Assembly: GCA_002717385.1 (NCBI GenBank)
Contig: PBDR01000025.1
Span: 1-64,000 of the forward strand
Direction of reading: 5' to 3'
Source: Chloroflexota bacterium
GTDB taxonomy: Bacteria > Chloroflexota > Dehalococcoidia > Lucifugimonadales > Lucifugimonadaceae
DNA length: 64,000 bases
Shown here: positions 5,879 through 7,049 of the stretch, one piece after another
Layout of the letters: each line of letters opens with the position of its first letter
How positions within the stretch are numbered: position 1 is the stretch's first letter
The notes under the pieces: generated by a model
What the model saw: only the letters and a program-made list of their open reading frames with translations
Database searches by the model: none
What the model was told of the DNA's origin: nothing
Program-made: the position numbers and the translations under genes

Positions 5879-5990
5879 TTAAAACTCTTTTATTTTTTTT
5901 ATTATTATTTCATTAATACAATTGTATAAAATGTAATAAATAATTATCGAACTTCAAAGGAAAATTTTATTCCTTAGGAAATTTAATTTT

Positions 5991-7049
5991 ATGAACAAGA
6001 AAAATATTAGATTGACCCAATTAGCATCATCTGCTGGTTGAGCTGGTAAGCTCAGTCAGAGCGAGCTTAAAGGTATTTTGAGCAAACTTTCATCTATAGA
6101 AAGCGATGACAATATATTATTGGACCATAAAACTGGAGATGATGCAGCTATCTATAAAATTAATAGCCAGATTTCTTTAGTTTTAACTTTAGATTTTTTT
6201 GCTCCAATCGTTGATGATGGATATACATATGGTGAAATTGCCGCAGCAAATTCGTTATCAGACGTTTATGCTGTAGGTGGAAAACCTGTTGTGGCTTTGA
6301 ATATTGCAGCATTTCCAAGAAACTTACCTAAAGAAATCATTTCATCAATTTTAGAAGGAGGATTCTCAAAAGCCAAAGAAGCAAATACTTCTATTGTAGG
6401 AGGTCATACAATAGATGATAATGAACCAAAGTATGGTTTAGCTGTTACTGGTTTTGTAAAAACAGGAAAACAAATTACAAATGCATTAGCAAAAACTGGT
6501 GATTTATTACTCTTAACTAAACCAATAGGTACTGGAATAATTACAACAGCTTTAAAAAATCATAAAAATTTCTTAAAACAAAATGATTTAAATATCGCCA
6601 TTGATTCCATGAAGAAACTTAATAATTTAGCATGTGATGTGATGAATCTATACAATATTAAATCTGCAACTGATATCACAGGATTTGGTTTATTAGGACA
6701 CTTAGACCAAATGATGAAATCAAGTAATAAATCTGCAATAATTTGGAATAATAAAATTCCTGTTTTTTCAGGTTCAAAAGATTTACTTAAAAAAGATATT
6801 TACCCTGCTGGGACTATAAGGAATCTTGAATATTTAGAAAAATATATTGATTTCCCTTCAAATTTATCTCCTCTTGAAAAAAAATTGTTGGCCGACCCAC
6901 AAACTTCTGGAGGTATGTTGATGGCTGTACCAGAAAAAACCTTAAATAAAGTGACCGATTTTCTAGAAAATAATGACTCAAAAAAAATTGAAGTAATTGG
7001 GGAAGTCACTGAACAAAAAAATTACTCGATTTCTATACATAAAAGTTAA
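5991..7049 (+). CDS. selD: selenide, water dikinase, selenocysteine-containing
   Basis: Makes selenophosphate from selenide and ATP, the selenium donor for Sec-tRNA and selenouridine. From ATG 5991 the frame reads RLTQLASSAG, an in-frame TGA at 6039-6041, AGKLSQSEL and then continues without break to TAA, giving 352 residues, the normal SelD length. The TGA falls at residue 17, the catalytic Cys/Sec position of the family, and the conserved Lys20 follows. Further SelD signatures are TGDDAAIY, SDVYAVGGKP, GGHTIDD and ADPQTSGG. Starting at the internal TTG 6078 would remove the active site, so the upstream start with UGA decoding is preferred. A hairpin just after the UGA supports recoding. The second active-site cysteine seen in E. 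coli (GCGCK) is Gly19 here. The gene is divergent from lysA and nearly abuts mazG at its 3' end. Confidence 0.93.
6039..6069 (+). promoter_or_regulatory. UGA selenocysteine codon and candidate bacterial SECIS hairpin in selD
   Basis: Five bases after the TGA, TAAGCTC (6047-6053) and GAGCTTA (6063-6069) form a perfect 7-bp stem around the 9-base loop AGTCAGAGC. Bacterial SECIS elements lie directly 3' of the recoded UGA and usually carry a guanine among the first loop bases; the second loop base here is G. The UGA-to-loop spacing of 12 bases is on the short side. An overlapping weaker hairpin, GAGC (6040-6043) with GCTC (6050-6053), could compete. Function is inferred from position and shape. 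Confidence 0.75.

Follow-up and report, generated by a model that had tools for sequence, protein, structure and literature searches.

A predicted selenocysteine-containing SelD encoded across an in-frame UGA in a marine Chloroflexota lineage

Among bacterial selenoproteins, the selenocysteine (Sec)-containing form of the selenium-activating enzyme selenophosphate synthetase (SelD) is one of the two with the widest distribution: 38 of 285 are Sec-SelDs, and FdhA is the most widespread of all (PMC1794560). SelD also ranks among the commonest marine selenoproteins (PMC2398784; PMC9402790), and a CxxU motif occurs in ~5.6% of marine single-domain Sec-SelDs (PMC2398784). The selD gene described here resembles those of bacterial Sec-SelDs (TIGR00476) with respect to the presence of UGA at the catalytic position, a hairpin just downstream, and Sec machinery in the family, and its product is single-domain, without an NADH dehydrogenase fusion, as in the bacterial Sec-SelDs compared. 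It differs from them only in lineage and in details, with an Ala-Gly pair following the Sec. Sec-containing SelD is well known, existing knowledge of the enzyme is unchanged by the present gene, and what is new is the annotation of this clade only. Literature titles and abstracts, at partial coverage that is no proof of novelty, gave nothing relevant on SAR202 as selenocysteine carriers.

The window, i.e. the whole stretch of 64,000 nucleotides analyzed, starts at base 1 of contig 26 of the host genome, a draft metagenome-assembled genome (MAG) of marine Dehalococcoidia/SAR202 type (1.38 Mb, 33 contigs, 86% complete, 31% G+C). The features of the selD locus are as follows.

5972–5979, + strand: possible, weak ribosome-binding site (around TTAGGAAA) upstream of ATG 5991, from sequence reading only
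5991–7049, + strand: selD, 352 codons plus stop TAA, with UGA codon 17 as predicted selenocysteine; matches TIGR00476, AIRS, and AIRS_C
6039–6041, + strand: in-frame UGA, predicted Sec17 in G-U-A-G-K; TGA at the same codon in 53/53 family members
6042–6074, + strand: predicted bacterial SECIS; stem 6047–6053/6063–6069, A6054 bulge, apical GU(CAGA)GC, weak lower stem 6042–6044/6072–6074
6078–7049, + strand: truncated table-11 ORF of 323 aa with a TTG start, as expected from a standard gene caller

Direct reading of the + strand places the start codon of selD at ATG 5991–5993, TGA 6039–6041 at codon 17, and the stop at 7047–7049, in agreement with the first-pass annotation, which had extended the frame from ATG 5991 through the TGA to give a 352-residue SelD. 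The read-through product matches TIGR00476 over residues 7–316 (349.4 bits, cut-off 125) and PRK00943 (323.8 bits, cut-off 299), and contains the AIRS and AIRS_C domains. Its active-site loop reads G-U17-A-G-K20 and is invariant in the alignment, with the catalytic Cys/Sec position followed three residues later by the lysine; the TGA had thus been correctly assigned to the catalytic position, with Lys20 after it.

The best solved relatives of the product are the selenide, water dikinases 2yye (256 bits) and 3u0o (235 bits), which we take to be the SelDs of Aquifex aeolicus (also 2zod) and Escherichia coli, respectively. The A. aeolicus enzyme, the best solved match, likewise has a loop without a second cysteine (G-C-A-A-K), but Cys occupies the catalytic position in its deposited sequence. 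E. coli SelD has the same fold and length as the selD product, but carries Cys17 and Cys19 (G-C-G-C-K) where the latter has Sec17 and Gly19. The second-Cys position is occupied by Ala, Ser, or Gly in nearly all relatives, and Cys is absent from the Chloroflexota SelDs compared; the lack of the second cysteine of E. coli SelD, to which the first-pass annotation drew attention, is therefore correct but ordinary, being shared with 2yye and the Chloroflexota enzymes. Most SelDs of the family have a CxxU motif (SCAGU), whereas those of the host genus (L025, L026, and L027) have SxxU (SSAGU).

We assign a probability of about 0.96 to the reading that the gene encodes a SelD with selenocysteine at catalytic residue 17, inserted by SelB at UGA 6039–6041 under guidance of the downstream hairpin, which makes selenophosphate. 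The host genome contains selB (G000:C28:7691–9544; 293 bits, cut-off 242), with its SelB winged-helix domains matched, and selB was found in 55/76 family genomes. selA exceeds its cut-off in 53/76 family genomes, including the congener G002 (471 bits); no match over the cut-off was found in the host assembly (86% complete) or in the congener G001. The SelA-like matches of the host (44–52 bits, against a SelA cut-off of 267.9 bits) were rejected as SelA-like PLP enzymes. A tRNA-Sec at ≥65 bits is present in 46 genomes, corresponding to 46/60 of the trait-bearing family genomes, and all 30 of the tRNA-Sec sequences retrieved have the anticodon TCA.

The first-pass expectation that the genome would contain selA, selB, and selC is thus borne out in the host for selB; selA and selC, not found in its 86% complete assembly, were detected only in relatives (selA in G002, selC in the 46 genomes). 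We infer that both genes lie in host sequence missing from the assembly. Neither Rfam nor a family-specific model derived from tRNA-Sec genes of the family detected selC in the three genus genomes (86, 74, and 71% complete), and apparent tRNA-Sec matches in the genus proved by anticodon to be Ser, Leu, and other tRNAs. Short tRNA loci are frequently lost from MAGs. The chance of selC being missing from all three genomes is ~1% (0.14 × 0.26 × 0.29) if completeness is independent, and its absence across the genus is a small unexplained point. Given that none of the three yielded selC, it is conceivable, although improbable, that the tRNA-Sec of the genus is too divergent for both models, with UGA still decoded as Sec.

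At least one of SelA, SelB, and SelD is found in 60/76 family genomes. The other 16, comprising genera g4 and g5 plus G061 and G067 of genus g10, show none of the four sel genes (SelA, SelB, SelD, and tRNA-Sec at ≥65 bits). SelD, SelA, SelB, and tRNA-Sec(TCA) are kept or lost together in the family. The joint absences (G011–G024, G061, and G067) concern two genera with small genomes and two members of a third genus, and one of the genomes concerned is 97% complete; such a clear-cut loss of the whole Sec trait at once in some small-genome lineages provides a useful natural comparison. The selB match of another g10 genome (G066:C57:3808–5550) has an internal TAA, possibly reflecting a decaying gene or an assembly error.

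The presence of SelB also bears on a general code change, with TGA specifying another amino acid (e.g. Trp) genome-wide. This would account for an in-frame TGA, but is already disfavored and very improbable: TGA terminates 6/47 long ORFs in the window, interrupts no other window gene, and in selD falls at the catalytic Cys/Sec position. No conserved proteins with TGA at Trp positions were seen in the window. Among the TGA read-through frames of the window, only selD unites two parts of one gene; the second long case represents two adjacent genes, as judged by their termini.

The longest table-11 ORF begins at TTG 6078, so a standard caller would shorten selD to 323 residues, the truncation that the first-pass annotation had anticipated. 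Were TTG 6078 the true start and the upstream frame untranslated, the product would resemble SelD but lack the catalytic loop. Such a start matches the table-11 ORF, but the SelD model match begins ahead of the TGA, and residues 7–20, including the loop and Lys20, fit the model and all relatives. The upstream codons, moreover, change mostly synonymously. Within the ten codons 5′ of the TGA, three differ from those of the nearest congener (G001), all synonymously. Across all family members, the codons upstream of the TGA show 270 synonymous versus 143 non-synonymous differences, compared with 95 versus 391 for ten codons deeper in selD, where the synonymous share is far lower (the counts come from related sequences, and the events are not independent). 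The mostly synonymous change argues that the frame ahead of the UGA is translated, leaving a start at TTG 6078 with hardly any likelihood.

Conservation of the TGA itself supports the selenoprotein reading. A profile search identified SelD in 56/76 family genomes; the 53 extracted SelD sequences that span the site have TGA as catalytic codon without exception, and Cys is encoded in none. Of 80 wider relatives, the codon is readable in 70, where it is TGA in 66 (partly overlapping with the 53 family sequences) and TGC in four, the latter being records from Omnitrophota, Gemmatimonadaceae, Eremiobacterota, and Gammaproteobacteria, none of them named Chloroflexota. Close SelDs beyond the two congeners are Dehalococcoidia and SAR202 records. 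An error in sequencing or assembly, or a Cys codon mutated in a pseudogene, might be suspected from a single draft MAG assembly in which selA and selC were not found, but is already refuted by the identical TGA in the 53 family sequences and the 66 wider relatives and by the mostly synonymous upstream substitutions.

The selD hairpin begins five bases 3′ of the TGA, exactly as had been described, with a perfect 7-bp stem formed by TAAGCTC (6047–6053) and GAGCTTA (6063–6069) enclosing a 9-nt loop, AGTCAGAGC. The MFE fold keeps this stem and adds two further pairs within the loop (6055–6056 with 6061–6062), so that A6054 bulges out and CAGA forms a tetraloop. Of the window's 2610 TGA triplets, 2.1% precede a perfect 7-bp hairpin starting 2–12 nt downstream, and 6 (0.23%) have an equally stable fold in the next 37 nt. 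Synonymous recoding of the 13 codons concerned, with the peptide unchanged, gave 200 variants with a mean of −2.2 kcal/mol; the selD hairpin (−11.8 kcal/mol; z = −6.95) is more stable, and none of the 200 matches it. In the family, the post-UGA mean of genus means is z = −1.06 (ten genera), versus −0.44 to +0.38 at control positions (19 stretches in the same selD genes). Hairpin strength differs among genera, with no excess in genera g9 and g11; post-UGA structure is therefore kept as a tendency, not as one fixed sequence. These folding comparisons point to a predicted SECIS hairpin directly downstream of the UGA, with a stability beyond that imposed by coding. An alternative UGAGCU/AGCUCA fold that contains the UGA itself was not accepted as a SECIS.

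The proposal that SelD is itself a selenoprotein, made in the first-pass annotation, is supported by the conserved TGA (53/53), the mostly synonymous change upstream, post-UGA structure beyond the needs of the peptide, the presence of selB, and the co-occurrence of selA, selB, selC, and selD. As a selenoprotein gene, selD is real and well supported, and the residue encoded is very probably selenocysteine; its actual insertion we infer from the sequence evidence. In the proposed mechanism, SelB bearing Sec-tRNA-Sec would insert selenocysteine at UGA 6039–6041 (residue 17), with the hairpin directly 3′ of the UGA acting as a bacterial SECIS that guides insertion. SelD would convert selenide and ATP to selenophosphate, and would thus provide the selenium donor from which its own selenocysteine is made, so that the system feeds itself.

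No match to SelU/MnmH (TIGR03167) was found at E ≤ 1e-20 in the 76 genomes, and there is therefore no evidence of SelD serving tRNA selenouridine. G002 carries a SelW-like (Rdx) gene whose CVPU motif is encoded with UGA (L281, G002:C68; UGA at reverse-strand position 590), and UGA-containing SelW-like genes recur across many members of the family, with a Cys paralogue (CVPC) frequently close by; the host genome has only the Cys form (L282 2101–2385, G000:C18). The lack of SelU/MnmH matches, together with the UGA SelW-like genes, suggests that this group most likely uses its selenophosphate for selenoproteins, SelD and the SelW-like protein at the least. Correction of the selD annotation across the marine Chloroflexota clade, where the default drops residues 1–29 and with them the catalytic residue, places the clade among ocean Sec users.

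At the beginning of the window, positions 1–2250, a 2.2-kb stretch covering glmS and part of plsC, show ~98–100% DNA identity to G001; beyond ~2.2 kb, identity drops sharply to ~67–80%, the level of the remainder. This step may reflect either a recent exchange of alleles between species or chimerism at the end of the contig. The gene order lysA-selD-mazG is kept in both congeners.
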